Positions 42,791-61,497 of a stretch of 64,000 nucleotides of DNA are shown piece after piece. Origin of the DNA: Paenibacillus antibioticophila (GTDB taxonomy: Bacteria; Bacillota; Bacilli; Paenibacillales; Paenibacillaceae); NCBI RefSeq assembly GCF_000455265.1, contig NZ_HG005139.1, positions 245,495 through 309,494 of the forward strand. Reading direction: 5' to 3'. How positions within the stretch are numbered: the first letter of the stretch is position 1; each line of letters opens with the position of its first letter. The translations under genes and the position numbers were made by a program. The notes beneath the pieces were generated by a model. The model did not search any database and was not told the origin of the DNA. It was given only the letters and a program-made list of their open reading frames with translations.

Positions 42791-44287
42791 CTATTTCTTC
42801 ATCTTATTCAGGCTAACATTCGTGGAACGCGTCTGGGAGGGGCGTCTGTTCAAGGCCCAGAACGGACCGCGAATAAAGATATCGTTCCAGTCCCGGAGCT
42901 TGACAGGTGCAGCCGGTATTGTATAAGGCGCGCCCAGACTTGTTAATTTGGCTAAATGGATAATAATCAGGGCGATGCCTGCGCAAAAACCGAAGTTCCC
43001 CAGCATACCTGACAGAATCAGCAGACCAAACCGGACAAGCCGGAGGGAGCCGCTCATGATATAGCTGGGAACCACGAAGGAAGCAATGGCTGACATGGCT
43101 ACAGAAATGATCAGAATATTGCTCGTGAACCCGGCTTGTACGGCTGCCGTTCCAATTACGATACCGCCAACGATACCGATGGTTTGTCCAATTTTGGTCG
43201 GAAGGCGCGCCCCTGCCTCCCGCAGCATTTCGATGGTTCCTTCCATCAGTAAAGCTTCGATTATGGGAGGGAACGGGACGCGGGATCTGGATTCGGTCAA
43301 GGAAATAAGCAGATTCTCGGGAATCATCTCATAGTGATAGGTTGTGATTGCGACATATAAAGGCGTCAAGCATATGGTAATAAGAAACGCTATGTAGCGA
43401 AGAACCCGTAAAGCCGATCCTACTACCCACCGATTATAATAATCATCCGGCGTGGTAAAGAACTCAAAAAAGGAGGAGGGGGCGATAATCACCGAGGGAC
43501 TATGCTCCTCGATTAACACAAGCTTCCCCTCATTCAGCTTGGATACTGCGATATCCGTCCGCTCCGAGGTTTGGAACAATGGAAACAGAGCGTTTGGAAA
43601 ATCATCGATAAGCTGAGTCAGCATCGTTCCGTCATATAATGAACTGAACTCAATGGCTTTAATCCGCTCCTCCATTTCCCGGACGTATTCCATGTCAGCT
43701 ATTCCGTCTATGTAGAGCACACAAATTTTGGTCTTGGAGAGTTCACCAGCCGTATATTGGAGTACCTTCAACCGGTTGCTTTTTAATCTGGAGCGGATCA
43801 GTCCCAAGTTGGTACCGAGCGATTCATTGAAAGCATCGTGCGGACCGTTGATGGCGCTTTCCGATTCGGATTGCTCGATGGACCTTTTCTCCGGGCCATA
43901 AGCATCCACCAGATACACCCCCTGAGGAAGAAAGAGAGCCACGTAACCATTCAGAATTCCGTGAACGGTTTGGACAGCATCCTCGGCAGCAATGAATTGC
44001 GAGCGCCGGAGCAATTGCTCCAATTCCTCCCTTTTGATATTCAGCAAAGGACGAAGAACATCCCTTTCATACGCCTGGGCGTCCAATTGATGAGCAAAGA
44101 ACAGCAAATCTGCCTGGAGTTCGGGCATGGTGTAGTGAGTCAGGTCGCTGCAATCCTTAAATTCCTCTTGAACATTCTGTAAAGTAAGGGCGCCCGGGGC
44201 TTGAGGAGAGCCCTGCGGGCTGTCGCTATGATCGCTTTTTTTGTTTTTGGCCTGGACCCACTTACTGATGAATTGGAGCATGGACAT
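42791..44287 (-). CDS. gerAA: Spore germination protein, GerA subunit (operon 1)
   Basis: A 498-residue GerA-family protein. A hydrophilic N-terminal domain (GYVALFLPQGVYLVDAYG, NGPHDAFNESLGTNLGLIRSRL, CVLYIDGIADMEYV) precedes a membrane domain of five or six helices (RVPFPPIIEALLMEGTIEML, IVGGIVIGTAAVQAGFTSNI). GerA subunits form the ion-conducting ring of the germinant receptor. ATG 44287 is at good distance from GGAGGGG. It is the first gene of this minus-strand operon and lies downstream of the SDR terminator. Confidence 0.93.
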   Translation of the reverse strand: MSMLQFISKWVQAKNKKSDHSDSPQGSPQAPGALTLQNVQEEFKDCSDLTHYTMPELQADLLFFAHQLDAQAYERDVLRPLLNIKREELEQLLRRSQFIAAEDAVQTVHGILNGYVALFLPQGVYLVDAYGPEKRSIEQSESESAINGPHDAFNESLGTNLGLIRSRLKSNRLKVLQYTAGELSKTKICVLYIDGIADMEYVREMEERIKAIEFSSLYDGTMLTQLIDDFPNALFPLFQTSERTDIAVSKLNEGKLVLIEEHSPSVIIAPSSFFEFFTTPDDYYNRWVVGSALRVLRYIAFLITICLTPLYVAITTYHYEMIPENLLISLTESRSRVPFPPIIEALLMEGTIEMLREAGARLPTKIGQTIGIVGGIVIGTAAVQAGFTSNILIISVAMSAIASFVVPSYIMSGSLRLVRFGLLILSGMLGNFGFCAGIALIIIHLAKLTSLGAPYTIPAAPVKLRDWNDIFIRGPFWALNRRPSQTRSTNVSLNKMKK

Positions 44288-44366
44288 GGCTATCCCCTCC
44301 ACAGCAATTTTTAGGTATTATGTGATGGAAAGGGAAGTTTATGCAAAGAGATCTTCCGGTTCAAGC

Positions 44367-47930: not shown

Positions 47931-49286
47931 ATGACGACTCATCGGGCGAGCAATGCTGCAAACTGGCTGAGAGAGAAGCTGGCCGAGCAATCGGACTACG
48001 AGGAGATCACGCTGGGCGCATCCTCACAAATTCAGCTTCAATATTTGAAAAGTGTGACTAACTCGAACCTGGTGTACCAATATGTAGTAGTTCCCAGTTA
48101 TGAGATGGATGATGTGCAAGCCTATGAAGCGTATATAGCAACCTTTCCCGGAACAGGTAAAGCGGATGATCTGCAGAAACTGATTGAAGGAATTTTAGAG
48201 GGCTATACCTTAGTCAGTATCGGCCCTAACAGTTATTTGCTTAACTCGGTGAAGGTGGAGTCCGGCGGTGTCGGAGAAGCGATAAATGAAGCGATTGTTC
48301 AAGGGCCTCGCGAGGCCTTCAGTGAGAGTATTGAGACGAATCTGAATCTAATTCGCCGCAGGTATCAGACTTCAGAATTGAAGGTTGAGACGATGACACT
48401 GGGGAGCCTGTCCAGAACGGCTATCGCGATCGTCTATGATCAGAAGCGGGTGGATTCGAGCGTACTCCAACAAGTAAAAGACCGGCTGAAAAAGGTTAAA
48501 ATCGATATCTTGCAATCTGCCGGAGAATTAGAGAAATATATAAGTCCTCACCGGTTCAGGATTTTTCCCAATATGGTCGTGACAGAGCGTCCGGATCGGG
48601 TTGTACTCAACCTGACAGAAGGAAAGGTTGCCATTCTGATGGATACGACCGGCTTTGCCATTATTGCTCCAGCAGTATTCACCGATTTCTTCTCGGCGAT
48701 GGATGATAAAATACAAATTCCTCTTGTCAGTCAGTTCTTGAAGCTGATTCGATACGTCGGATTGTTTATAACCTTGACCTTGCCCGGGCTATACGTCACC
48801 TTTGCATCTTACAATCCGGAAATCCTGAAGTCTCAACTTGTTCTTCTAATTGCAGGCAGCCGTGCGGCCGTTCCGTATCCATCCTTTATGGAGGTCTTTT
48901 TTATGCTGCTGATGATGGAATTTCTTACCGAAGCAAGCTTGCGCCTGCCCAAAGCGATTGGCCCGACCGCAACCACTGTAGGTGGGCTGATTCTGGGACA
49001 GGCAGCTACCCAGGCAGGGCTTGTTAGTAATATTATGATCATTCTCGTATCCGCCGTTGCAATCTCTAACTTCGTGATTCCGCTGAGTATGATGGGCTAC
49101 ACCATCCGTGTGATCAAGTACATTATTATTCTGACGGCGATGCTCTTCGGAATAGTAGGCATTATGATCTCTGTGGTCGGAATCATTATGTACTTGTCCG
49201 ATGTCCGCAGCTTCGGCAAACCCTACTTCAGACTAACATTGTGGGAATCCAAGGAGAAGGTAGGGCACCAGCATGGTAAGTCGTAG
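47931..49286 (+). CDS. gerAA: Spore germination protein, GerA subunit (operon 2)
   Basis: A 451-residue GerA-family protein, about 50 residues shorter than the operon 1 copy, mainly at the N-terminus. Family marks are VVQGPREAFSESIETNLNLIRRRYQT (visible as EAIVQGPREAFSES), AIAIVYDQKRVD, RAAVPYPSFMEVFFMLLMM and VGGLILGQAATQAGLVSNI. AGGAGG lies before ATG 47931. It overlaps gerAB by 14 bases. This operon is on the plus strand and is not a close duplicate of operon 1, so the two receptors probably answer different germinants. Confidence 0.93.
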   Translation: MTTHRASNAANWLREKLAEQSDYEEITLGASSQIQLQYLKSVTNSNLVYQYVVVPSYEMDDVQAYEAYIATFPGTGKADDLQKLIEGILEGYTLVSIGPNSYLLNSVKVESGGVGEAINEAIVQGPREAFSESIETNLNLIRRRYQTSELKVETMTLGSLSRTAIAIVYDQKRVDSSVLQQVKDRLKKVKIDILQSAGELEKYISPHRFRIFPNMVVTERPDRVVLNLTEGKVAILMDTTGFAIIAPAVFTDFFSAMDDKIQIPLVSQFLKLIRYVGLFITLTLPGLYVTFASYNPEILKSQLVLLIAGSRAAVPYPSFMEVFFMLLMMEFLTEASLRLPKAIGPTATTVGGLILGQAATQAGLVSNIMIILVSAVAISNFVIPLSMMGYTIRVIKYIIILTAMLFGIVGIMISVVGIIMYLSDVRSFGKPYFRLTLWESKEKVGHQHGKS

Positions 49287-50421
49287 GTACTACTATTATC
49301 TGTTTATGATCAGTATGGTTATCAATATTATCAATCTTGTACCGAGAGTTCTTATTCTCACCAGGTTCGACGGCGTATTCTGGTCGATTCTGCTTGCGGT
49401 TGCTTACTGCACCTTAACAATGTATATTTTCACCCGCCTGATTATCCAGTTTGAGGGACAGGGCTTTCCGGAAATTTTCAATACTTATTTACCCCGGGCT
49501 GCAGCAACTCCTCTCCTCATCTTATACTCTATCTTTTGGTTTATTGCGGGATGTATTCTGCTGTTGTCCTTCGTAGATATCACGATTCGCTTCATCAGCC
49601 CGGATATACGGGGGAGAGCTGTCATGACAGGTTTTTTGATTCTGGTGGTCGGAGCCAGTCGTATTAAGGCAACCTCCATTTTGTATGCAATAGAGACCGT
49701 ACTCATGCTGTGTTTGCCTGCAATGGTGTTCATTTTAGTCAAGGCCTTGATCAATCCCGCATTTAATTGGGACTCGGTTCTGCAGGTATTCACCTATTTA
49801 TGGACCAAGCCTAAGCTGGTTACGGTTGCCGGAGCCAGCTTTGCGTTTACCGGATATGTAAATCTGGCGATTTTCAATCGCAGCTTTCAGAATCTAAAGC
49901 TCGAGCTGCGCCATTTCTGGCTGGTTCCCGTATCTGGGCTTCTTATTCTGCTGGTTGCCCTGCTGGTGCCGATTGGGTATCACGGTACGATCGGAGTAGA
50001 GGATCATGTCTATAGCTGGTTCTCAACTGCGGATTCTTTACGAATGGAGACGTTTGTTGTTGAACGGGTTGTGTATTTGTTTTACATCACCTATCTCAGT
50101 ATGTCGCTTGTTACGGTAGTGATTTACTGGCATGTTGGTTTGGAGCTGTTCAAGGGCTGCTTCAACGGAAAGGAAAGTAAAGGGGAGTCCGAGGACGGAG
50201 AGAAGGGTACAGGTAAAAAGACGAGAAAGAGTCGATGGATCCAAGCGGTAATTCTCTTTACGCTCTCTGCGATCATGATTTATTTGGTCGAGGAGCTCAA
50301 CCAAGTTCAATTGGCTCAGGCAGGTCAGTGGTTTTTAAACTTTCGGTTTTTCTCGGAAATGCCCCTGATCCTGTTATTGATACTTCTGGTATGGAAAAAA
50401 AGGAGAAGTGCAAGAAGATGA
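49273..50421 (+). CDS. gerAB: Spore germination permease, GerB subunit (operon 2)
   Basis: A 382-residue APC-type spore permease with about ten helices (YYYYLFMISMVINIINLVPR, FWSILLAVAYCTLTMYIFTR, and so on). It has an unusual charged stretch of ~30 residues near the C-terminus (KESKGESEDGEKGTGKKTRK) before the last two helices, absent from the operon 1 protein. It would bind the germinant within the GerA-GerB-GerC receptor. The start overlaps gerAA; the stop overlaps gerAC as ATGA. Confidence 0.9.
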   Translation: MVSRRYYYYLFMISMVINIINLVPRVLILTRFDGVFWSILLAVAYCTLTMYIFTRLIIQFEGQGFPEIFNTYLPRAAATPLLILYSIFWFIAGCILLLSFVDITIRFISPDIRGRAVMTGFLILVVGASRIKATSILYAIETVLMLCLPAMVFILVKALINPAFNWDSVLQVFTYLWTKPKLVTVAGASFAFTGYVNLAIFNRSFQNLKLELRHFWLVPVSGLLILLVALLVPIGYHGTIGVEDHVYSWFSTADSLRMETFVVERVVYLFYITYLSMSLVTVVIYWHVGLELFKGCFNGKESKGESEDGEKGTGKKTRKSRWIQAVILFTLSAIMIYLVEELNQVQLAQAGQWFLNFRFFSEMPLILLLILLVWKKRRSARR

Positions 50422-51533
50422 AAAGAAGCCTGTGGGCTAAGCTATGCGTGATAGGCTTGCTGGTCTCGCTATTGAGCGGATGTCAGTTCAAGGATATTGA
50501 CAAGCGTTCCTTTGTCCTGGCGATTGGCGTGGATCGTCCCGAGGACCCGGAGACCAAGCATCTTTATGAAGTTACTTTAAAGACCGCTTTGCCGGAAGGA
50601 GATCCTACCGCTCGCACTCAGGAGTCCATTATGATTACGCAAGTGGCTCCCAGCATTCCAGAGGCCGTACGGCTAATGAAATCTAAAATTGATAAGGAGC
50701 TGGACTTCAGCCACTGCAAGGTTGTTGTGTACGGGCAGGCCTTAGCCAAGGAGAATATCGCTGCAGTGCTGGACTGGACGACCCGTCGGCGTGACCTTCA
50801 ATTGATTATGTACTGTGCAGTTGGGGTTCCCAATGCCAAGGAAGTGATCCAAATGCAACCGAAAACGGAAAGAGTGCCGGGCAATGCCCTGATTCTTTCC
50901 CTAAGCAAGGATGGCAGCGAATCGCCGTTTGTCCATACGGTATACTCATTTGACCTGGCCAGGAAGATGACAGAGCACGGGATTGATCCAATCATGCCAG
51001 TTGTGCATACCCAGGACCCGGATATGCTTGTCGTGAACAAGCTGGCTGTATTCAACAAATCCAAGATGGTGGGTACGCTGACACCTGATGAGACCCGACT
51101 GTTCAATCTGTTGGCGACCAAAAATCTGATTACCAGCTTCCGAGTCATGGCAGAAGGGAATGCTTATGATTATTATCTGGAATCCTCGAAATCAGAATAT
51201 AAAATTAACCCTGCCAAAGCTGGAAAGGCTACGGTTAGTTATAAAGTGAGCGGAAGTGGAACGATTGAAATGAACGATGAAGGAATCCCCGTTACAGGAC
51301 CGGTATTACGCGAGGTATCCCGTGCGGCAAATGAGCAGTGGGAGAAGGATGTCAAGGCTCTGTGTCAAAAATTTCAAGGCTTGGGGGTAGATCCGCTGGG
51401 ATGGGGGCTCCGCTATTTCTCAAGAAATTGGAATAATGAGCAGGAGGTTCAGCAGTGGAAGGAGCTCTATCCGGAGCTTGAATTTCAAGTCAAGGCGGAT
51501 GTGAAGATGAAGTATACCGGGCTGATTCGCTAA
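50418..51533 (+). CDS. gerAC: Spore germination protein, GerC subunit (operon 2)
   Basis: A 371-residue Ger(x)C lipoprotein. MKRSLWAKLCVIGLL then LLSGC gives a lipidated Cys near residue 22. Conserved parts are DIDKRSFVLAIGVDRPED, LDFSHCKVVVYGQALAKEN, DPDMLVVNKLAVFNKSKMVG and VKALCQKFQGLGVDPLGWG. AGGAGAAG lies 9 bases before ATG 50418, which overlaps the gerAB stop; the longer frame from 50235 is inside gerAB. A large hairpin made from a dispersed repeat follows. Confidence 0.92.
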   Translation: MKRSLWAKLCVIGLLVSLLSGCQFKDIDKRSFVLAIGVDRPEDPETKHLYEVTLKTALPEGDPTARTQESIMITQVAPSIPEAVRLMKSKIDKELDFSHCKVVVYGQALAKENIAAVLDWTTRRRDLQLIMYCAVGVPNAKEVIQMQPKTERVPGNALILSLSKDGSESPFVHTVYSFDLARKMTEHGIDPIMPVVHTQDPDMLVVNKLAVFNKSKMVGTLTPDETRLFNLLATKNLITSFRVMAEGNAYDYYLESSKSEYKINPAKAGKATVSYKVSGSGTIEMNDEGIPVTGPVLREVSRAANEQWEKDVKALCQKFQGLGVDPLGWGLRYFSRNWNNEQEVQQWKELYPELEFQVKADVKMKYTGLIR

Positions 51534-53461: not shown

Positions 53462-54802
53462 ATGGCGAAGTGGAAGAAAGTGCTAACCTCCCGGGATTCC
53501 GGAGAACGGCTGGCCTATCAAGGCGAATTGGCAGCCGGAGTTAATTCCGCAGAGGGCCAAGCTCACATCAAGCTGGATCCTGCCCGGACGTATCAATCCA
53601 TTGTTGGTTTTGGAGGCGCTTTTACGGAGGCAACGGCCTACACACTCTCCCGGATCAGTCCGGAGAAGAGAGCCGAGGTCATCTCCAAATATTTTGATCT
53701 CGAACAAGGCCTCGGCTATACGATTGGCCGGGTGCATATTCATAGCTGTGATTTTGCTTTGGGCAATTATACGTATGTGGAAGACAATGATGCCGAGCTC
53801 AAGACCTTTGATATTTCCCGCGAGCGGAAATGGGTGCTGCCGCTCATCCATGATGCTGCTAAGGCTGCCGGCCAAGACATTACGATGCTGGCTTCTCCCT
53901 GGAGCCCGCCCGCCTGGATGAAGACGAATGGAGAAATGAATCATGGCGGCCAGTTAAAGCCGGAATTCAGAGAAGCCTGGGCTCTTTATTATACTAAATT
54001 CATTAAGGCCTTCCGTGAAGAAGGGGTGCCTATCTGGGCGATTACGGTGCAAAATGAACCGGCGGCTGTACAGACCTGGGATTCCTGTATTTATAGCGGG
54101 GAAGAGGAGCGGGATTTCGTTCGAGATCATCTTGGCCCGACGATGCATCGCGAAGGACTGGAAGACGTGAACATTCTGATCTGGGACCATAACCGGGATC
54201 TGATCGTGGAACGCGCCTCTGCTGTGCTGTCTGATCCGGAAGCAGCCAAGTATGTATGGGGCACCGGCTTCCATTGGTATGTCAGCGAAGCCTTTGAGGA
54301 GGTGGGCAAGGTTCATGAGCTGTTCCCCGACAAGCATCTGCTCTTTACAGAAGGCTGCCAGGAGGGCGGCGTCAAGCTGGGCGAATGGTTCACCGGCGAA
54401 CGCTACGGACGCAACATCATCGGTGATTTGAACAACTGGACCGAAGGATATCTGGACTGGAATCTGGTGCTGGATGAGACAGGCGGGCCGAATCATGTGA
54501 ACAATTTGTGTGATGCTCCGATTATCGCTGATACGACTACGGATACGGTTCATTATAATAGCTCGTATTACTACATCGGCCACTTCAGCAAGTACATTCG
54601 TCCGGGAGCGGTGCGGATTGGCCTGGAATCGGACATTACGAATCTATACATGACTGCCTTTAAAAATGAGGACGGAAGCATTGCTGTTGTTGTCCAGAAC
54701 GAAGGAGATGCGGGGCAAGACTTTACTTTGGAGCTGGGTGCCGATTCCGTATCCGATCACCTGTCCGCTCATTCGATCGCAACCTATCTTATTAAGCCAT
54801 AA
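53462..54802 (+). CDS. GH30-family beta-glucosidase/glucanase, intracellular
   Basis: A 446-residue GH30 enzyme: a TIM barrel beginning QSIVGFGGAFTEATAYTL, with acid/base Glu199 in ITVQNEP and nucleophile Glu297 in LLFTEGCQEGG. MLASPWSPPAWMKTNG is the usual active-site strand. The C-terminal beta domain (NLYMTAFKNEDGSIAVVVQNEG) is present. Unlike secreted GH30 glucanases it has no signal peptide, so it must act on imported oligosaccharides or glucosides. GH30 members of this type are beta-1,6-glucanases, beta-glucosidases or glucosylceramidases; which one is unclear. It is followed 13 bases later by the phosphorylase gene. Confidence 0.9.
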   Translation: MAKWKKVLTSRDSGERLAYQGELAAGVNSAEGQAHIKLDPARTYQSIVGFGGAFTEATAYTLSRISPEKRAEVISKYFDLEQGLGYTIGRVHIHSCDFALGNYTYVEDNDAELKTFDISRERKWVLPLIHDAAKAAGQDITMLASPWSPPAWMKTNGEMNHGGQLKPEFREAWALYYTKFIKAFREEGVPIWAITVQNEPAAVQTWDSCIYSGEEERDFVRDHLGPTMHREGLEDVNILIWDHNRDLIVERASAVLSDPEAAKYVWGTGFHWYVSEAFEEVGKVHELFPDKHLLFTEGCQEGGVKLGEWFTGERYGRNIIGDLNNWTEGYLDWNLVLDETGGPNHVNNLCDAPIIADTTTDTVHYNSSYYYIGHFSKYIRPGAVRIGLESDITNLYMTAFKNEDGSIAVVVQNEGDAGQDFTLELGADSVSDHLSAHSIATYLIKP

Positions 54803-54815
54803 GGAGATGAATCCC

Positions 54816-57800
54816 ATGCCAAAATACGGTTTTGAAAAAGAAACATTTGTGATTGAACAGTTTGATAAAGCGAAGCCATTCTCGAGCTTCCTGCCGGGCC
54901 TTGCCGGACTCAAGGGTATACCGATGTGGACCTTCTATGTAAACCGCGGTCAAGGCGTATGCAGCTTCGGAATTCGGGACAAGAACAGTCCGATCATGGA
55001 ATTTTCGCCTGCCAACATCACTTATCAATCGGTATCCATGCAGGGCTTCCGGACGTTTGTGAAGCTTAAGGATCAGGATTTGATTTACGAGCCGTCCCAG
55101 AACGCTTATCCCGATGCCTCTGCCAAACGCACGATGCGCATTTCGGCGAATGAATTCGTGATCGAGGAGCGCAATGAAGCGAAGGGACTGCAGATCAAGG
55201 TTACTTATTTCCACATCCCGAATGATGATTACGCCGCACTGGTTCGTAAAGTAGAACTGACCAATATTTCCGGAGAGGCTATAAGTCTCGAAATGCTCGA
55301 CGGTCTGCCTGAGATCTTGCCGTTCGGTGTGGAGAACTCCGGCTACAAGGAGATCGGCAACCTGCTTCGCAGCTGGATGGAAGTCGATAACCTGGAGGAG
55401 GGCATCCCCTATTACCGCAACCGTTCCAGTACGCATGACGAAGCGGAAGTCAGTGAAGTGCGCAGCGGTCATTTTTACCTGTCATTTGACGAAGAAGGAA
55501 GACGCTTCTCGCCTATTGCAGACTTTGAATTGGTATTTGGAGCGAACACTTCGCTCGCTTATCCCGACGGATTTGCTGATTCATCGATCCAGGAGCTGCT
55601 TAAGAAACCGCAGTATTGCAAGAATAAGGTCCCTTGCGGCTTCTCTGCAATTTCAGCTGACCTGACCGCGGGGGAGACGAAGCAGGTATACACCCTGATC
55701 GGCCACTTTGACAGTGTGGAGCGCCTGAATGAAAAAGCCCGGCATATTTCCTCGCCGGCTTATGTCGAGCAGAAGCTCGCGGAAGCCCGGGAGCTGACTG
55801 AGAACCTGACGGCCGATATTGCTACCAAGACCTCGATGCCGCATTTTGATGCCTACTGCAAGCAGAATTATCTCGATAATTTCTTGCGCGGGGGCTATCC
55901 GTTTATTTTTGAGAATGGGAAGGAAGGCTTTGTGATCCATCTCTATTCCAGAAAGCACGGGGATCTTGAGCGGGATTATAATTTCTTCTCCATTGCGCCG
56001 GAGTATTACTCGCAGGGGAACGGCAACTTCCGCGATGCCAACCAAAACCGCCGCAGCGATATTTACTTTAATCCGAGAGTGGGCACGTTCAATATCAAGA
56101 CATTCTTTAGTCTGATGCAGGCAGACGGCTATAACCCGCTGGGAGTTGAAGGCACGAGCTTCCAGGTCGAGAAGGAGCGGTCCGGCGAACTGTCCGTCTG
56201 GCTGGACAAGGCTGTTCAGAATCATCGTGAGGAATTGGCAGCGCTATGTCACGCTAAATTCACGCCCGGCAAGCTGATTTCTTATATTGCCAGCCATGGA
56301 GTAGGACTGAATGTGAGCGACGAGGAATTCCTCACGGGCGTGTTCTCGCTGGCCAAGCAAAATATTGAGGCTAACTTCGGCGAAGGATACTGGTCGGACC
56401 ACTGGACGTACAATATGGATCTGATTGACAGCTATCTGGATATTTTCCCGGATCGTAAGGCGGAGCTGTTATTTGAAGAGGCTGACTACACCTTCTTTGA
56501 CAGTCCGGCGAGAGTATTGCCGCGCAGCGAAAAATATGTGCTGAATCACGGGCAGGTGCGCCAATATGGTTCATTGGTGCATGATGAGGAGAAGCTGCAG
56601 AAGCTTGGCATTTCACCTAAGGGCACGAACTGGCTGAAGACGGCGCACGGCAGCGGAGAGGTGTATCAGACCAACCTGTTCGTGAAGGTGCTGTCGCTGT
56701 CCCTTGTCAAGTTCGCAACGCTGGATCCTTTCGGCATGGGAATTGAAATGGAAGGCAACAAGCCGGGCTGGAACGATGCGATGAACGGTTTGCCTGGATT
56801 GTTCGGATCGGGCATGAGCGAGACATTCGAATTGAAGCGGATGCTGAAATTTGTGCTGGAGGTCGTCCGGGAGTACGGAGCATATACGGCAGACGTTCCG
56901 GAGGAAATCGCCGATTTGTTCGATCAAGTGAAAGAGCTGCTCGGCAGCCACTTGGACGGCAAGCTGGACTCCTTCGCCTATTGGGATCAAACATCATTAG
57001 CCCGCGAGGCATACCGGGATCGGATTCGCTTTGGCATCAGCGGAGTGGAGCGCAAGCTGAGCCTGTCAGAGCTGGAGGATGCGGTTCTGAAGATGCTGGG
57101 CAAAGTGAATCAGGGGATTGCCGAGGCGGTTAAGCTGGGCAACGGCCTGACACCGACCTATTTTGCCTTTGAAGCCACGGAATTTGAACCGGTACTGAAT
57201 GCGCAGGGAGAAGCGGAGATCAGCGGATACGGTCTGCCTAAGGCTACCGTGAAGAAGTTTGCGGTTCGGCCGTTGCCGTACTTCCTGGAAGGACCGGCAC
57301 GCTGGATGAAGACGATTGAGGATCCGGAAGAGGCTCAGAGAGCCTATGAAGTGATTCGCAGCAGTGATCTGTTCGACAAGAAGCTTAGCATGTACAAGAC
57401 CTCGGTGAGCCTTGATGAAGAGACTCATGAGATCGGCCGCATTCGCGCGTTTACGCCGGGCTGGCTGGAGCGGGAATCCATCTTCTTGCATATGAGCTAC
57501 AAGTATTTGCTCTCCTTGCTTAAGAATGGCTTGAAGGAAGCCTTCTTCGCGGAGATGAAAACATCGCTGATCCCGTTCCTGGATCCGGCAGTGTATGGTC
57601 GCAGCACCCTGGAGAACTCCTCCTTTATCGCGCCAAGCGTCAACCCGGATCCGGAGGTTCATGGCAGAGGATTCGTCGCCAGACTCAGCGGTTCGACCGC
57701 TGAATTCCTCAGCATGTGGGTGATGATGATGGCCGGGAAGCATATTTTCCGTATGGCTGACGGAGAATTGCAGTTGAAGTTGAATCCTGCATTGCCGGGA

Positions 57801-58037
57801 TGGCTCTTTGATGATCAGGGAGAAGTATCCTTTACCTTCCTGGGAAGCACATTAGTCACGTACCGCAATCTGGATCGTCGTGATACTTTCGGAGGAAACG
57901 CAGCTGCGATCTGCAGGATGACGGTAGTGAAGAGAGATGGACAGCAGATTCAGATTGACGGTAACGCCATTACAGGTACTTTGGCTGAAGCTGTGCGTAA
58001 TGGCTTGGTAGAATCCATTACAGCAGAACTGGCTTAA
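54816..58037 (+). CDS. Large (alpha/alpha)6-barrel beta-glucan phosphorylase-like protein
   Basis: A 1073-residue protein of the GH94/GH149/GH161 phosphorylase group: N-terminal beta-sandwich domains (WTFYVNRGQGVCSFGIRDKNS, YLSFDEEGRRFSPIADF), a helical barrel (EGYWSDHWTYNMDLIDSYLDIFP) and the catalytic loop KPGWNDAMNGLPGLFGSG with candidate catalytic Asp654. The C-terminal lid includes APSVNPDPEVHGRGF. The length exceeds cellobiose phosphorylases (~800) and fits oligoglucan phosphorylases of ~1100 residues; linkage is not certain. No signal peptide. ATG 54816 is 9 bases after AAGGAG and the stop of GH30. It probably converts beta-oligoglucans to glucose-1-phosphate. Confidence 0.82.
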   Translation: MPKYGFEKETFVIEQFDKAKPFSSFLPGLAGLKGIPMWTFYVNRGQGVCSFGIRDKNSPIMEFSPANITYQSVSMQGFRTFVKLKDQDLIYEPSQNAYPDASAKRTMRISANEFVIEERNEAKGLQIKVTYFHIPNDDYAALVRKVELTNISGEAISLEMLDGLPEILPFGVENSGYKEIGNLLRSWMEVDNLEEGIPYYRNRSSTHDEAEVSEVRSGHFYLSFDEEGRRFSPIADFELVFGANTSLAYPDGFADSSIQELLKKPQYCKNKVPCGFSAISADLTAGETKQVYTLIGHFDSVERLNEKARHISSPAYVEQKLAEARELTENLTADIATKTSMPHFDAYCKQNYLDNFLRGGYPFIFENGKEGFVIHLYSRKHGDLERDYNFFSIAPEYYSQGNGNFRDANQNRRSDIYFNPRVGTFNIKTFFSLMQADGYNPLGVEGTSFQVEKERSGELSVWLDKAVQNHREELAALCHAKFTPGKLISYIASHGVGLNVSDEEFLTGVFSLAKQNIEANFGEGYWSDHWTYNMDLIDSYLDIFPDRKAELLFEEADYTFFDSPARVLPRSEKYVLNHGQVRQYGSLVHDEEKLQKLGISPKGTNWLKTAHGSGEVYQTNLFVKVLSLSLVKFATLDPFGMGIEMEGNKPGWNDAMNGLPGLFGSGMSETFELKRMLKFVLEVVREYGAYTADVPEEIADLFDQVKELLGSHLDGKLDSFAYWDQTSLAREAYRDRIRFGISGVERKLSLSELEDAVLKMLGKVNQGIAEAVKLGNGLTPTYFAFEATEFEPVLNAQGEAEISGYGLPKATVKKFAVRPLPYFLEGPARWMKTIEDPEEAQRAYEVIRSSDLFDKKLSMYKTSVSLDEETHEIGRIRAFTPGWLERESIFLHMSYKYLLSLLKNGLKEAFFAEMKTSLIPFLDPAVYGRSTLENSSFIAPSVNPDPEVHGRGFVARLSGSTAEFLSMWVMMMAGKHIFRMADGELQLKLNPALPGWLFDDQGEVSFTFLGSTLVTYRNLDRRDTFGGNAAAICRMTVVKRDGQQIQIDGNAITGTLAEAVRNGLVESITAELA

Positions 58038-58265: not shown

Positions 58266-58302
58266 AAGAGGTATGCATAAAAATTTTGGCAGGGGTGCTG
58301 GA

Positions 58303-60198
58303 ATGAAGGGGTTTCTAAAGGTATTTTCGATTTTTATGGTGCTAGGTATATTCATCTTTTTCGTAGTTCTCTTGGAAGTCCCGGAGAAGGATAATATAAA
58401 TGAGCAGGTTATTACTGAGTGGGAGATTACCTGGACGGACCATCTAGATTCTCAAATCAGCACTGAAGAACTGGAGGCCACTCAGCCTTGGACGGAGGTT
58501 CAGGCCTCTGACCAGGTCCCTGAGCGACCGGAAGGAGCCACGGTTCAATGGATAAGGATGGATCTGCCTAAGATTGAATCTGGCTCGCCAGCCCTTTTAT
58601 TTGAAAAGGTGTTAGGTAGAGAAATTATTATCAAAAAGAATCAGCAGCTTATTTATGAGTCAAGAAGGGATTTTAATTACGGAGTCAATACGATCTTGCT
58701 TCCTTTGAACCAATCGGATGGAGGAGAATCGATTTATATCGGAATTGATTCACCTACACGGATTGGAATCATAGGGACTGTTCAAGCAGGTGAGTTCAAA
58801 GAACTACAAAGATCGTTCATTAAAAATAATATTCTCGATTTTATCATTGGCAGTGCCCTGATATTTATAGCAATTGTCATGCTGGTATGCTCACTCTTCC
58901 TGAAGAATGAAAATATGTCTGGCTGGTTTTCATTATGTCTGGTCATTTTATCCAGCGGGACTATTGTAATCACTTATTCATCATTCCTATACTCATTGTA
59001 CGGCTCGTTAGGAAATATTTACGTGGCGCTCTTTGATTTGGGGTTACTCGTTTTGCTTCCTTCCTTTACATTGTTTTTTGAAGGGATATTTGGGAAGGGA
59101 TATAAGTCTATTGTTACTAAATTTCGGAAGTTCCAAGTGGTTTACTCGACACTCTGTGTGGCATTGCTTCTAATTAATTTTGCCAGCAATAACTATTTCT
59201 ACAGCATATATCAACTTTTTTCTGGATTATTGTTGAGCGTTATCATGATAATCCAATTTATTATGATCATTGTTATTTCAACAGGATATACAATCAAGGG
59301 AAATCGCGAAGCGATTATTTTTTCGTGTGGTTTTGGAATATTTGCATTTTTAGGCCTGGGTGAACTACTGTGGTTCTATTTTAAGTCAGCTAATTATGAA
59401 CTCTTTATCTGGAAATGGGGGATTGTCTGTTTTCTGATTTCCCTGATTATTATTTTAGGTAATAGATTTGCAAGTAATCATGAACGGATTGTTGAATACT
59501 CAAAGCAATTGGAAATGTTTAATAACGAACTGCAGCGCTCGGAAAAAATGGAGATTATCAGTGAACTGGCGGCTTCTGTTGCGCATGAAGTACGCAATCC
59601 GCTCCAAGTAACCCGAGGCTTCCTTCAATTGCTTGTAGCCAAGCAAAACTCGAGCGATAAGGTTTATCTGAGCATGGCGCTGGAGGAGCTGGATCGAGCC
59701 TCCAATATCATTACGGACTTTCTGACTTTTGCTAAACCGGAAGTAGGTAAAGTTGCTGCCCTTAATGTATTGAATGAGTTTATTCATATTGAAGGCATTT
59801 TAATTCCGATGGCTAATTTGCAGGGGGGCAGAATAACTGTACAAATCCCAAAGGATTTGAATATCAAGGGGAATTCCTCGAAATTTAAGCAAGCCTTTAT
59901 CAATATTATTAAAAACAGTATTGAATCCCTTCATGGCGAAGGTGAAATACAGGTGTGGGCGTATGAGCAAAAAGGGGAAGTGTGCATCCATATTAAGGAT
60001 AATGGTGAAGGTATGGAGGAAGAAGTTCTGTCGCGCCTTGGGGAGCCTTACTTTTCGAATAAAACAAAGGGAACCGGGCTTGGGTTGATGGTGACATTCC
60101 GAATCATCGAAGTAATGCAAGGCAGAATAGAGTTCAAAAGTGAAAAGGGAGTAGGAACGGAAGCTATTGTTCGATTCCCCGCAGTTGATCCTGCATAA
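58303..60198 (+). CDS. Multi-pass membrane sensor histidine kinase
   Basis: A 631-residue kinase. One N-terminal helix (residues ~5-24) precedes an extracytoplasmic domain of ~155 residues (WEITWTDHLDSQ, GATVQWIRMDLPKI, FEKVLGREIIIKKNQQ). Seven helices follow (about 185-395), a layout like 7TMR-DISM receptors. HisKA has AHEVRNPLQVTRGFL with His428; HATPase has N-box INIIKNSIES, DNGEGM and GTGLGLMVT. HisKA is of the sporulation-kinase type, not the HisKA_3 type of ComP. ATG 58303 follows AGGGGTG. No response regulator adjoins. The gene is AT-rich relative to its neighbours and converges on the RiPP precursor gene. Confidence 0.88.
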   Translation: MKGFLKVFSIFMVLGIFIFFVVLLEVPEKDNINEQVITEWEITWTDHLDSQISTEELEATQPWTEVQASDQVPERPEGATVQWIRMDLPKIESGSPALLFEKVLGREIIIKKNQQLIYESRRDFNYGVNTILLPLNQSDGGESIYIGIDSPTRIGIIGTVQAGEFKELQRSFIKNNILDFIIGSALIFIAIVMLVCSLFLKNENMSGWFSLCLVILSSGTIVITYSSFLYSLYGSLGNIYVALFDLGLLVLLPSFTLFFEGIFGKGYKSIVTKFRKFQVVYSTLCVALLLINFASNNYFYSIYQLFSGLLLSVIMIIQFIMIIVISTGYTIKGNREAIIFSCGFGIFAFLGLGELLWFYFKSANYELFIWKWGIVCFLISLIIILGNRFASNHERIVEYSKQLEMFNNELQRSEKMEIISELAASVAHEVRNPLQVTRGFLQLLVAKQNSSDKVYLSMALEELDRASNIITDFLTFAKPEVGKVAALNVLNEFIHIEGILIPMANLQGGRITVQIPKDLNIKGNSSKFKQAFINIIKNSIESLHGEGEIQVWAYEQKGEVCIHIKDNGEGMEEEVLSRLGEPYFSNKTKGTGLGLMVTFRIIEVMQGRIEFKSEKGVGTEAIVRFPAVDPA

Positions 60199-60245: not shown

Positions 60246-60491
60246 TTACCACTCACCCCAAATAACTTGCGGTTTGATGTCGGATTTAATCGCTTTGGAA
60301 GGGCTTGGCGGTAAAACGACGTAGAATTCGTCAGAATTCTCTTCAACAGCTTTAATCTTAATGTGTTCTGGTAGAGCAATTCCCAGTGCCTCTTGAATTG
60401 CTTCTCTAGGATTTGCAAGAAGCTTTGCCTTAAAACTAGGGTCTTGCCAAGCCTTTTCAATAACTTGTGATTGAAGAGCACTTGTTGTCAT
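60246..60491 (-). CDS. NHLP-type RiPP precursor peptide (81 aa)
   Basis: Encodes 81 residues. Residues 9-62 follow the nitrile-hydratase-like leader pattern: QVIEKAWQDPSFKAKLLANP, then EAIQEALGIALPEHIKIKAVEE, then DEFYVVLPP. This leader occurs on ribosomal peptides modified after translation. The C-terminal 17 residues after LPPSP (SKAIKSDIKPQVIWGEW) would be the core, with Trp78 and the terminal Trp81. No GG cleavage site is seen. AAGGGTGATC lies 2 bases before the ATG at 60491; an ORF start at 60602 is inside the next gene. It has its own promoter and lies 73 bases downstream of the isoprenoid synthase gene. Confidence 0.85.
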   Translation of the reverse strand: MTTSALQSQVIEKAWQDPSFKAKLLANPREAIQEALGIALPEHIKIKAVEENSDEFYVVLPPSPSKAIKSDIKPQVIWGEW

Positions 60492-60532
60492 AAGATCACC
60501 CTTTCCATTAAAATGGTTATATTTTCCTATTA

Positions 60533-60562
60533 AGTATACCATAATACCCACTAATCTAGCAA
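60533..60562 (-). promoter_or_regulatory. Promoter of the precursor peptide gene
   Basis: On the minus strand TTGCTA (60562-60557), an 18-base spacer and TATACT (60538-60533). The -35 lies at the stop codon of the isoprenoid synthase gene, within a CTAATAT/AGATTAG palindrome (60551-60568). This would allow the peptide to be made in excess over its enzyme. Confidence 0.65.
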
Positions 60563-60564
60563 TA

Positions 60565-61497
60565 TTAGATGTTTTTTGCGAGCCAGTACCCGAGTCCCCC
60601 ATTGAGCAGCATACGTCTGTTATTTATGACCTCCTGCGCCCCTTCATTGAGGTTCCTGACCAGATCATAGTGAAAGTGATAGAGATCCGGCGCCAGGTTC
60701 TTGATGGCTTCGAGGGATTCGTGGTTGCGATTGGCCAGGGCTGACAGCTCGCTTAATGCATCATGGACCATCATGCCGTCTCTGATCTCCTCCGGAGAAG
60801 GGCGTGTTCCTGAGGGGAGGTTTAATTGGGCTTGTACGACAGAGACCAGGGAATTATAGCTGCCTTGGTCAAGGTCTTTTTCCCAGTCCTCCCAATCATC
60901 CAGAAGCTGAAGCGTCACCAAGGCCGTGTCAACGGCTGACTCAAACATGTCAATCTCTTGCTCGCGCCCGCCAAGAATCATGGAGGCAGCCACGCTCAAC
61001 TTAACCGGTGCTGCTTTATGCCCCAATCGCACCGGGTTCTCATAGTAAAAGTCTGCAACTTTCTCGGTGGATACAGCAGCAGCCCATTCGGAGACATACT
61101 TTTTATAGTAGACCCAAAAGGGTGCCCGATCCTTCAGACATTCTTGATAAGCACTAATGAATTCAATATGAATGAATTCTGCCAGTGTCAGCTGCTGCGA
61201 TACGTCTGTATCCGGATCATCCATGCAGGCATCAACTAAATGAAAATACATCATCTTGAATAAGTTAGCTACCGCAATACGGCGGCATGTCTCCCGATCA
61301 ATTCCGGCATAAGACTGAAGCCAGAACGGAAGTAAGTAGCATATGTAGTTCTTGGAACGATGCTCCTTCAGCGCATGGAATCTGTCTAAATAATCTACAG
61401 CCTGCTTGCTAAAAGGAACGGGAAGCTGAAACAGAATCGACTCAGCTTCGGAGAAGGCTAGGTCAAGCTCTTTTTCATAGTTTGAAAGCCATTTCAA
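60565..61497 (-). CDS. ComQ-like class I isoprenoid synthase/prenyltransferase
   Basis: A 310-residue all-helical protein. Two Asp-rich motifs face each other in the class I isoprenoid synthase manner: HLVDACMDDPDTD (residues ~87-98) and LQLLDDWEDWEKDLDQG (~197-212), the latter with a DDxxD and the following SYNS. These would bind Mg2+ and an isoprenyl diphosphate. Size and motifs recall ComQ, which prenylates a Trp of ComX, more than chain-length-type synthases. The start is TTG 61497, 8 bases after GAGGAGG. It is followed on the same strand by the precursor peptide gene, in the comQ-comX order. It could instead be a terpene synthase. Confidence 0.75.
   Translation of the reverse strand: MKWLSNYEKELDLAFSEAESILFQLPVPFSKQAVDYLDRFHALKEHRSKNYICYLLPFWLQSYAGIDRETCRRIAVANLFKMMYFHLVDACMDDPDTDVSQQLTLAEFIHIEFISAYQECLKDRAPFWVYYKKYVSEWAAAVSTEKVADFYYENPVRLGHKAAPVKLSVAASMILGGREQEIDMFESAVDTALVTLQLLDDWEDWEKDLDQGSYNSLVSVVQAQLNLPSGTRPSPEEIRDGMMVHDALSELSALANRNHESLEAIKNLAPDLYHFHYDLVRNLNEGAQEVINNRRMLLNGGLGYWLAKNI

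Follow-up and report, generated by a model that had tools for sequence, protein, structure and literature searches.

A PalP-PalX-PalQ cluster of Paenibacillus antibioticophila as a candidate prenylated pheromone system with a KinB-like sensor kinase

Introduction

The closest described relative of the locus analysed here is the PalP-PalX-PalQ trio of Paenibacillus alvei, in which PalP is a histidine kinase, PalX a precursor peptide with an NHLP leader and PalQ an isoprenoid-synthase-like enzyme (Miyata, Ito and Fujinami 2023, PMC10853753). P. alvei PalQ attaches prenyl groups of C5 to C15 at C3 of the indole ring of the last residue of PalX, a Trp, with formation of a pyrroloindole; it is aided by the PalX leader and is blocked by alanine residues appended after the Trp. 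In lysate the P. alvei precursor is cut between T72 and D73, giving a core of eight residues that ends in Trp, and within the enzyme Q197 has been proposed to hold the indole NH and K39 the C-terminal carboxylate (PMC10853753). On the evidence of its sequence, a member of this cluster is present in a stretch of 64,000 nucleotides from Paenibacillus antibioticophila (RefSeq assembly GCF_000455265.1, contig NZ_HG005139.1, positions 245,495 to 309,494 of the forward strand), referred to below as the window.

PalQ has been taken up as a peptide-lipidation tool (PMC13290415), and no natural role of its product is stated in the accessible text of either the PalQ paper or this later review of peptide lipidation. 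The former, as far as its accessible text goes, names the kinase once, speaks of quorum sensing for ComX only, and has no mention of a pheromone, sporulation or a receptor (PMC10853753); the accessible text of the review gave no match for PalX, PalP or sporulation. In the open-access literature searched, we found no paper in which PalX is tied to signalling or PalP to sporulation.

The second system for comparison is ComQXPA. P. alvei PalQ shares no more than 25% identity with ComQ (PMC10853753), and ComQ RO-E-2 needs its Trp at the second to fourth position from the end of the precursor (PMC5331326). The kinase of the system, ComP, has a variable N-terminal part in contrast to its conserved cytoplasmic domain (PMC4008528). 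An older census lists a locus resembling comQXPA, with a hypothetical comX, for P. curdlanolyticus (PMC4008528), and comQXPA was not found in a genome study of P. polymyxa; the Pal trio is not described in the accessible text of either.

We propose that the product of the Pal cluster is a pheromone that PalQ prenylates and that occurs in pherotypes, and that PalP reads it and feeds Spo0A; we put the probability of this reading at about 0.6. The trio itself and the chemistry of P. alvei PalQ were already known. New here are the co-occurrence of PalX and PalQ, the internal position of the Trp in 85 of 198 pairs, the covariation of the sensor half of PalP with the residues around the conserved Trp, and a KinB-like PalP core with a probable Kin1038 orthologue.

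Results and Discussion

The Pal genes of the window

The palX-like gene (60246–60491, reverse strand) encodes 81 residues from an ATG at 60491 and ends in VIWGEW; a longer frame of 118 residues, from 60602, is also mechanically open. Its leader (residues 1–62, 60306–60491, reverse strand) is conserved in alignments and matches the NCBIfam NHLP family TIGR03793 with an E value of 3.3e-19 (68.5 bits against a cut-off of 50.9), the match covering residues 3–65 of an 80-residue query from which the start Met was missing. A match to the Pfam family NHase_alpha (PF02979, E 7.2e-12) accompanies it, and the remaining Pfam and NCBIfam matches are weak; none is ComX. There are 50 homologues (P0001–P0050), for which a precomputed Pfam accession, PF27793, is listed besides PF02979; PF27793 was absent from the Pfam scan of the window.

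The palQ-like gene (60565–61497, reverse strand) encodes 310 residues from a TTG start codon with a strong Shine-Dalgarno sequence directly upstream, as read by eye. The predicted structure, with a mean predicted local distance difference test (pLDDT) score of 91.5, finds its best PDB matches among farnesyl- and octaprenyl-diphosphate synthases (best E 2.1e-4, probability 1.00, template modelling score about 0.6–0.7). Sequence searches were less telling: no Pfam or NCBIfam family lies above its cut-off, neither collection gave a ComQ match, InterPro family IPR033965 itself not having been searched, and a PalQ profile against PDB sequences found nothing convincing (best E 0.65). The catalytic motifs are nevertheless invariant. 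D89 and D93 of the first Asp-rich motif (61219–61233, reverse strand), and Q197 with D200, D201 and D204 of the second (60886–60909, reverse strand), are each conserved in all 81 aligned PalQ sequences, including that of the window; the numbering is that of P. alvei PalQ. Metagenomes apart, the 86 homologues come from Paenibacillus, Fontibacillus, Xylanibacillus and Marinicrinis.

The third gene, palP-like (58273–60198, forward strand), encodes a predicted membrane sensor histidine kinase of 641 residues with Pfam HisKA and HATPase_c domains. It is convergent with palX, the two stop codons being 47 bp apart. The preliminary description of this stretch had joined an NHLP-leader peptide to an isoprenoid-synthase-like gene with two Asp-rich motifs on the same strand, and the open reading frames, the TIGR03793 match, the fold model and the alignment all bear this out. 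It had also expected a prenyl-type modification of Trp, which is right in kind given the known activity of P. alvei PalQ on PalX; the accompanying view that such a pairing was undescribed was mistaken, the pair having been published in 2023 (PMC10853753). The adjacent convergent kinase PalP, which belongs to the cluster, was not listed there.

Distribution of the trio

In a sample of 394 Paenibacillaceae genomes, PalQ is found in 326 and an NHLP match in 338; twelve of these NHLP matches are weak, with E above 1e-16, and come from genomes that lack PalQ. Strong PalX and PalQ matches occupy the same 326 genomes, with neither in 56 and a weak PalX match alone in 12; the identity of the two sets was compared by eye and recounted by genus group. 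Since the strong matches share the same genomes, the pairing is not due to chance, and a synthase occurring without the peptide in relatives, named beforehand as a possible refutation, was not seen (0 of 394 genomes). In a class-wide sample PalQ is present in 37 of 398 genomes, all of them Paenibacillaceae except one from another family of the same order.

The kinase follows the pair closely. Among 81 loci, namely the window and the best 80 of 189 related contigs, PalX is present in 80, and in all 80 the nearest histidine kinase gene lies on the strand opposite palX. Full triples occur in 157 of 160 further stretches, which were selected for PalQ and are partly of the same species. No PalX was present in the examined stretch of six loci (L058, L125, L157, L158, L160 and L212; L numbers are our labels for loci).

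Departures from the simple arrangement were also seen. A second PalP-like kinase scoring above 400 bits is present in 23 of the 81 loci, including L026, L027, L030, L032, L035, L036 and L042, either in tandem behind the first or beyond palQ; it may serve as a second receptor or be left over from an abandoned pherotype. In P. baekrokdamisoli (L072, 5992–11208) palX and palQ are separated by about 4 kb that include a kinase gene, which suggests a rearranged or duplicated system.

The conserved Trp

A single Trp near the C-terminus of PalX is invariant in all 37 aligned sequences, in keeping with the conserved tail Trp expected in the preliminary description. In the window it is W78 (codon 60258–60260, reverse strand), the fourth residue from the end, and is followed by GEW. 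That description had proposed W78 or W81 as the modified residue; W78 is the invariant one, and W81 (codon 60249–60251, reverse strand), the last residue, is absent from the closest relatives, the tails of which read VIWGN, FIWGN and FIWGE. We conclude from these alignments that W78, not W81, is the conserved Trp and the predicted prenylation site. By analogy with the eight-residue core of P. alvei PalX, the predicted core comprises residues 71–81, DIKPQVIWGEW (60249–60281, reverse strand).

The internal position of the Trp is not peculiar to the window. In the PalQ tree of the 81 loci, 24 of the 25 members of the window clade carry one to six residues beyond the Trp, compared with 2 of 54 with a known tail in its large sister group, and the tree needs four changes of Trp position against 22.0 in shuffles. 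A wider set of 198 distinct PalQ-PalX pairs, from which PalQ pieces shorter than 270 residues were excluded, has the Trp last in 113 and internal in 85, with one residue after it in 40 pairs, two in 32, three in two, four in ten and six in one; nine changes of position are needed on that tree. L165 and L220 were dropped because their called open reading frames have no Trp within the last 16 residues, L220 being near a contig end. Two groups have uniform tails: AMWGTGS-like, with four residues after an internal Trp, in group g17 (L195–L197, L199–L203, L205 and L208), and CGPWRS-like, with two, in group g4 (L126–L136 and L186–L193).

Since 85 of 198 natural pairs hold the Trp internally, and ComQ RO-E-2 accepts an internal Trp, the C-terminal-Trp rule of P. 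alvei PalQ is unlikely to apply to the whole family, barring prior clipping of the tail. No corresponding switch is evident in the enzyme. PalQ positions 86, 88, 90, 94, 169, 170 and 207, among others, differ between the 25-row clade and the 52 rows compared with it (L060, L068, L070 and L058 being excluded from this contrast), and shared ancestry explains these differences equally well. No position stands out as switching together with the shift of the Trp from last to internal; with at most six independent starred pairs, hardly any could have reached significance. K39, the proposed carboxylate holder, does not separate the two types.

Covariation of the PalX tail with the PalP sensor

The front of PalP varies with the end of PalX. 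In the AF2 model of PalP (pLDDT 78, predicted template modelling score 0.58) an N-terminal helix is followed by an extracytoplasmic β-sandwich (residues 45–174, 58405–58794, forward strand), a membrane part of about seven helices (residues 175–400, 58795–59472, forward strand) and the kinase core (residues 421–637, 59533–60183, forward strand). Entropy marks the β-sandwich as variable, and we propose it as the ligand-binding part, the model being of moderate confidence here; the kinase core is conserved.

Close pairs were built from 197 distinct PalP-PalX-PalQ triples, from which, as from the all-pairs tests, L072 was excluded on account of its distant palX. A changed tail was defined as a difference at positions −4 to −1 or after the Trp, a choice made before the scan of PalX blocks described below, or at −2 to −1 or after the Trp, a choice made after it, and partial correlations control for PalQ, kinase and leader distance. 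Of 65 nearest pairs without overlap, 22 had a changed tail under the first of these definitions. Median divergence with a changed tail was 0.217 (versus 0.074 otherwise) for the sensor, 0.180 (versus 0.026) for the membrane part, 0.048 (versus 0.019) for the kinase and 0.128 (versus 0.068) for PalQ, and tail change gave a partial r of 0.51 with the sensor (p 0.0001) and 0.62 with the membrane part.

Path-disjoint pairs gave the same picture. With 61 such pairs the narrower definition (16 changed) yields r 0.68 for the sensor and 0.72 for the membrane part (p 0.0001 each), and the wider one 0.53 and 0.61. At three cut-offs, giving 47, 61 and 74 pairs, the sensor values are 0.52, 0.53 and 0.48 under the wider definition and 0.66, 0.68 and 0.63 under the narrower (p 0.0006 or less), compared with 0.09, 0.04 and 0.10 for a control block in the leader. 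When PalX was scanned block by block, the sensor was predicted only by the residues after the Trp (r 0.70, six changed pairs) and by positions −2 to −1 (r 0.30, p 0.014), all other blocks having p above 0.07. A scan along PalP placed the link with the tail at 0.36–0.56 through residue 396 and at 0.05–0.30 beyond.

The contrast is clearest between the window and P. brevis MSJ-6 (L003), in which PalQ is 91%, the leader 100% and the kinase 96% identical, the sensor is only 56% identical, and the tails after the Trp are GEW and GN respectively. Ten hand-picked pairs were compared at the DNA level. Of the seven with a changed tail, four (window/L003, L010/L014, L011/L016 and L008/L239) show a clear drop of identity in the front half of palP, L012/L242 and L034/L047 a smaller one and L079/L307 hardly any; in the three same-tail pairs identity is about flat along palP. 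Replacement of a single tract does not explain the covariation, because the genes are convergent and the more conserved kinase domain lies in the DNA between the PalX tail and the sensor.

PalP and the sporulation kinases

Against PDB sequences the PalP kinase core matches Sporulation kinase B (3d36) with an E value of 7.5e-51, far ahead of the runner-up at 1.5e-25. Among the 50 Foldseek matches listed for the whole model of PalP, kinase cores come first, and no fold was assigned to the sensor from them. The kinase domain is of the HisKA type (PF00512) and not of the ComP type (PF07730), and its core is KinB-like.

Five putative sporulation kinases have been reported in P. polymyxa E681, Kin99, Kin689, Kin1038, Kin1377 and Kin3851 (PMC7538429). 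Six genomes that we take for the P. polymyxa group each have five PalP matches at E ≤ 1e-20, and in two of the six the Pal locus forms a pair with one named as P. terrae, the PalQ distances being 0.003 and 0.010. In four genomes in matching coordinate order, a fit of the five kinase positions to the five E681 locus numbers gives r ≥ 0.9998, no residual exceeding 47 genes; the orthologue of PalP comes third, as Kin1038 does. In the other two, judged by eye and not fitted, the five kinases keep the same circular order and the record start or direction differs. A kinA kinB mutant of B. subtilis is reported to have regained sporulation in part with Kin1038, and to a greater degree with P. polymyxa spo0A (reviewed in PMC6429003). 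The P. polymyxa orthologue of PalP is thus probably Kin1038, a reported sporulation kinase, a link that is strong but indirect.

Genomic surroundings

The neighbours scanned against Pfam comprise the histidine kinase, MntP, TatA, a Glycos_transf_4 protein, a GH30 enzyme and one frame of 1123 residues without a match. That open frame (54666–58037), which lies beside the GH30 gene, gave no Pfam match at E 0.001 and by eye resembles large carbohydrate-active enzymes. Further away, open reading frames at 47931–51533 and 42791–44302 resemble, by eye only, spore germinant receptor genes of the gerA/gerB/gerC type. Promoter and terminator patterns occur about as often as expected by chance (10 against 8.5, and 1 against 2.9). 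As the preliminary description held for its shorter surroundings, no other maturase, protease or exporter is found among the Pfam-scanned neighbours; these likewise include no other transporter, no immunity gene and no response regulator.

Weighing the pheromone reading

A number of observations count against a PalQ-matured pheromone read by PalP. P. alvei PalQ refuses peptides extended past the Trp (PMC10853753), and W78 has three more residues after it. The cluster has no exporter or leader protease of its own among the scanned neighbours. By fold alone ZraS (27% identity) stands ahead of KinB (43–44%) in the Foldseek matches, and the best NCBIfam matches of PalP, AtoS (3e-49) and then KinD (E 2.2e-47), are both far below their cut-offs. 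The Kin1038 identity comes from gene order and number, not from the sequence of Kin1038, and the six genomes are not known to include E681. Three stretches of group g17 (L368, L370 and L372) have no full triple, a full histidine kinase being missing. In the same genomes PalQ-PalX pairs (L204, L206 and L207) end in KAAW with no recognised PalP alongside, a case in which a receptor might lie elsewhere.

The covariation has its own weak points. The effect of the residues after the Trp, though strong, comes from six changed pairs only, and changes at −4 to −1 alone are not significant (r 0.17, p 0.09). In the 61 pairs kinase divergence also rises with tail change when the kinase is not a covariate (r 0.35, p 0.004), and the sensor/kinase ratio differs modestly (rank test p 0.015–0.036), so that part of the covariation may reflect imperfect control for divergence time. 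All-pairs partial Mantel effects are small (r 0.08–0.17), and that between tail and kinase, given PalQ and sensor, is larger (0.38); it was because these tests are weak and confounded that we turned to close pairs, after a list of close pairs had been seen. Individual pairs also disagree: the sensor changed little in L389/L390, L319/L325 and L038/L054 in spite of a change near the Trp, and L004/L006 and L278/L301 show sensor change without a matching change near the Trp.

Five alternatives were considered. The first, unlikely though it deserves to be taken seriously, is that PalX carries no message to the population and that its prenylated product remains in or on the membrane of its producer as a private ligand or lipid anchor that tunes PalP there. 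The lack of an exporter or protease gene in the cluster and the affinity of prenyl groups for membranes would suit it, and it predicts the same covariation of tail and sensor; however, the joint diversification of the two resembles that of secreted pheromones, and the variable domain of PalP is predicted, with moderate confidence, to lie outside the membrane.

Improbable, too, is the idea that in the internal-Trp clades the residues after the Trp are clipped first, so that PalQ always meets a C-terminal Trp. It would reconcile these tails, which extend only one to six residues beyond the Trp, with the loss of P. alvei PalQ activity on alanine extension (PMC10853753). The cluster has no protease gene, however, and it is the residues after the Trp that covary most strongly with the sensor, as would be expected if they persisted in the ligand.

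That PalX is instead a prenylated antimicrobial or toxin-like product, a ribosomally synthesised and post-translationally modified peptide with PalP only its regulator or self-sensor, we consider rather improbable. NHLP leaders are typical of precursors of such peptides, and an NHLP precursor identical to one from P. terrae has been listed, as a prediction only, as a proteusin bacteriocin (PMC7829367). Against this, no transporter or immunity gene accompanies the pair among the scanned neighbours, presence in 326 of 394 genomes is an unusual spread for a bacteriocin, and the tail residues covary with the kinase sensor.

We also consider it rather improbable that the PalQ of the window modifies the terminal W81, or both Trp residues, with W78 serving a structural role. 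W81 is the last residue and P. alvei PalQ acts on a C-terminal Trp, not on extended peptides (PMC10853753), yet W78 is the residue kept in 37 of 37 sequences, the closest relatives keep only the internal Trp of the two, and the fourth position from the end is one that ComQ RO-E-2 takes (PMC5331326). Finally, a synthase making a free terpenoid, with the peptide unrelated, would agree with the fold, both Asp-rich motifs and the labels of several homologues as terpene synthase or polyprenyl synthetase, and is rejected as hardly credible given the co-occurrence of PalQ and PalX in the same 326 genomes and the action of P. alvei PalQ on PalX (PMC10853753).

Proposed mechanism and significance

In the pheromone reading that we prefer, PalX would be made with its NHLP leader and PalQ, by analogy with the P. 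alvei enzyme, would transfer a prenyl group, likely C10–C15, onto indole C3 of W78. Removal of the leader would leave a short prenylated peptide of some 8–11 residues, which would be secreted as a pheromone. A few residues beside and after the prenyl-Trp would decide which PalP recognises it, binding taking place through the fast-evolving extracytoplasmic and membrane half of the kinase. Through its KinB-like core, and with no neighbouring response regulator, PalP could then control the flow of phosphate to Spo0A, as comparison with the sporulation kinases suggests, so that sporulation or stationary-phase decisions would come to depend on population and pherotype.

There is about an even chance, in our estimate, that Pal represents a second widespread prenyl-Trp pheromone system of the Paenibacillaceae, differing from ComQXPA in its leader, its kinase and its wiring, with pherotypes at the species level, a KinB-like receptor (PalP, Kin1038 in P. 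polymyxa) coupled directly to sporulation, and a tail length after the Trp that changed several times as a specificity switch. If so, 326 of the 394 sampled genomes would have a path from quorum sensing to sporulation that escaped notice because it works without ComX and ComA. The rule that only a C-terminal Trp is modified is qualified by the 85 internal-Trp pairs, and the enzyme toolbox for peptide lipidation could widen.

Comparison with known systems

The window shares its three genes with the P. alvei cluster, and its PalQ has D89, D93, Q197, D200 and D204 at the same numbered positions. The two differ in the tail: P. alvei PalX ends in Trp and its PalQ needs that, whereas the window PalX continues with GEW after the invariant Trp, which is internal in 24 of 25 members of its clade.

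With ComQXPA the locus has in common an isoprenoid-synthase-like enzyme, a Trp near the C-terminus of a small precursor that is prenylated there and predicted to be so here, and a membrane kinase, encoded alongside, whose input half varies (PMC4008528); W78, fourth from the end, also accords with the positional rule of ComQ RO-E-2. In contrast, the window has an NHLP leader and no ComX, its kinase is of the KinB-type HisKA class and not of the ComP type PF07730 (PMC4008528), palP is convergent with palX, and no response regulator equivalent to ComA adjoins them among the scanned neighbours. With leader, kinase type and gene order different and the regulator missing, an assignment of the locus to ComQXPA is rejected.

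The likeness to the sporulation kinases lies in the signalling end of PalP, the core of which matches KinB and the P. polymyxa-group orthologue of which sits at the place expected for Kin1038. What sets PalP apart from both is its input half, modelled as a β-sandwich followed by about seven helices, and the linkage of its gene to a peptide maturation pair.

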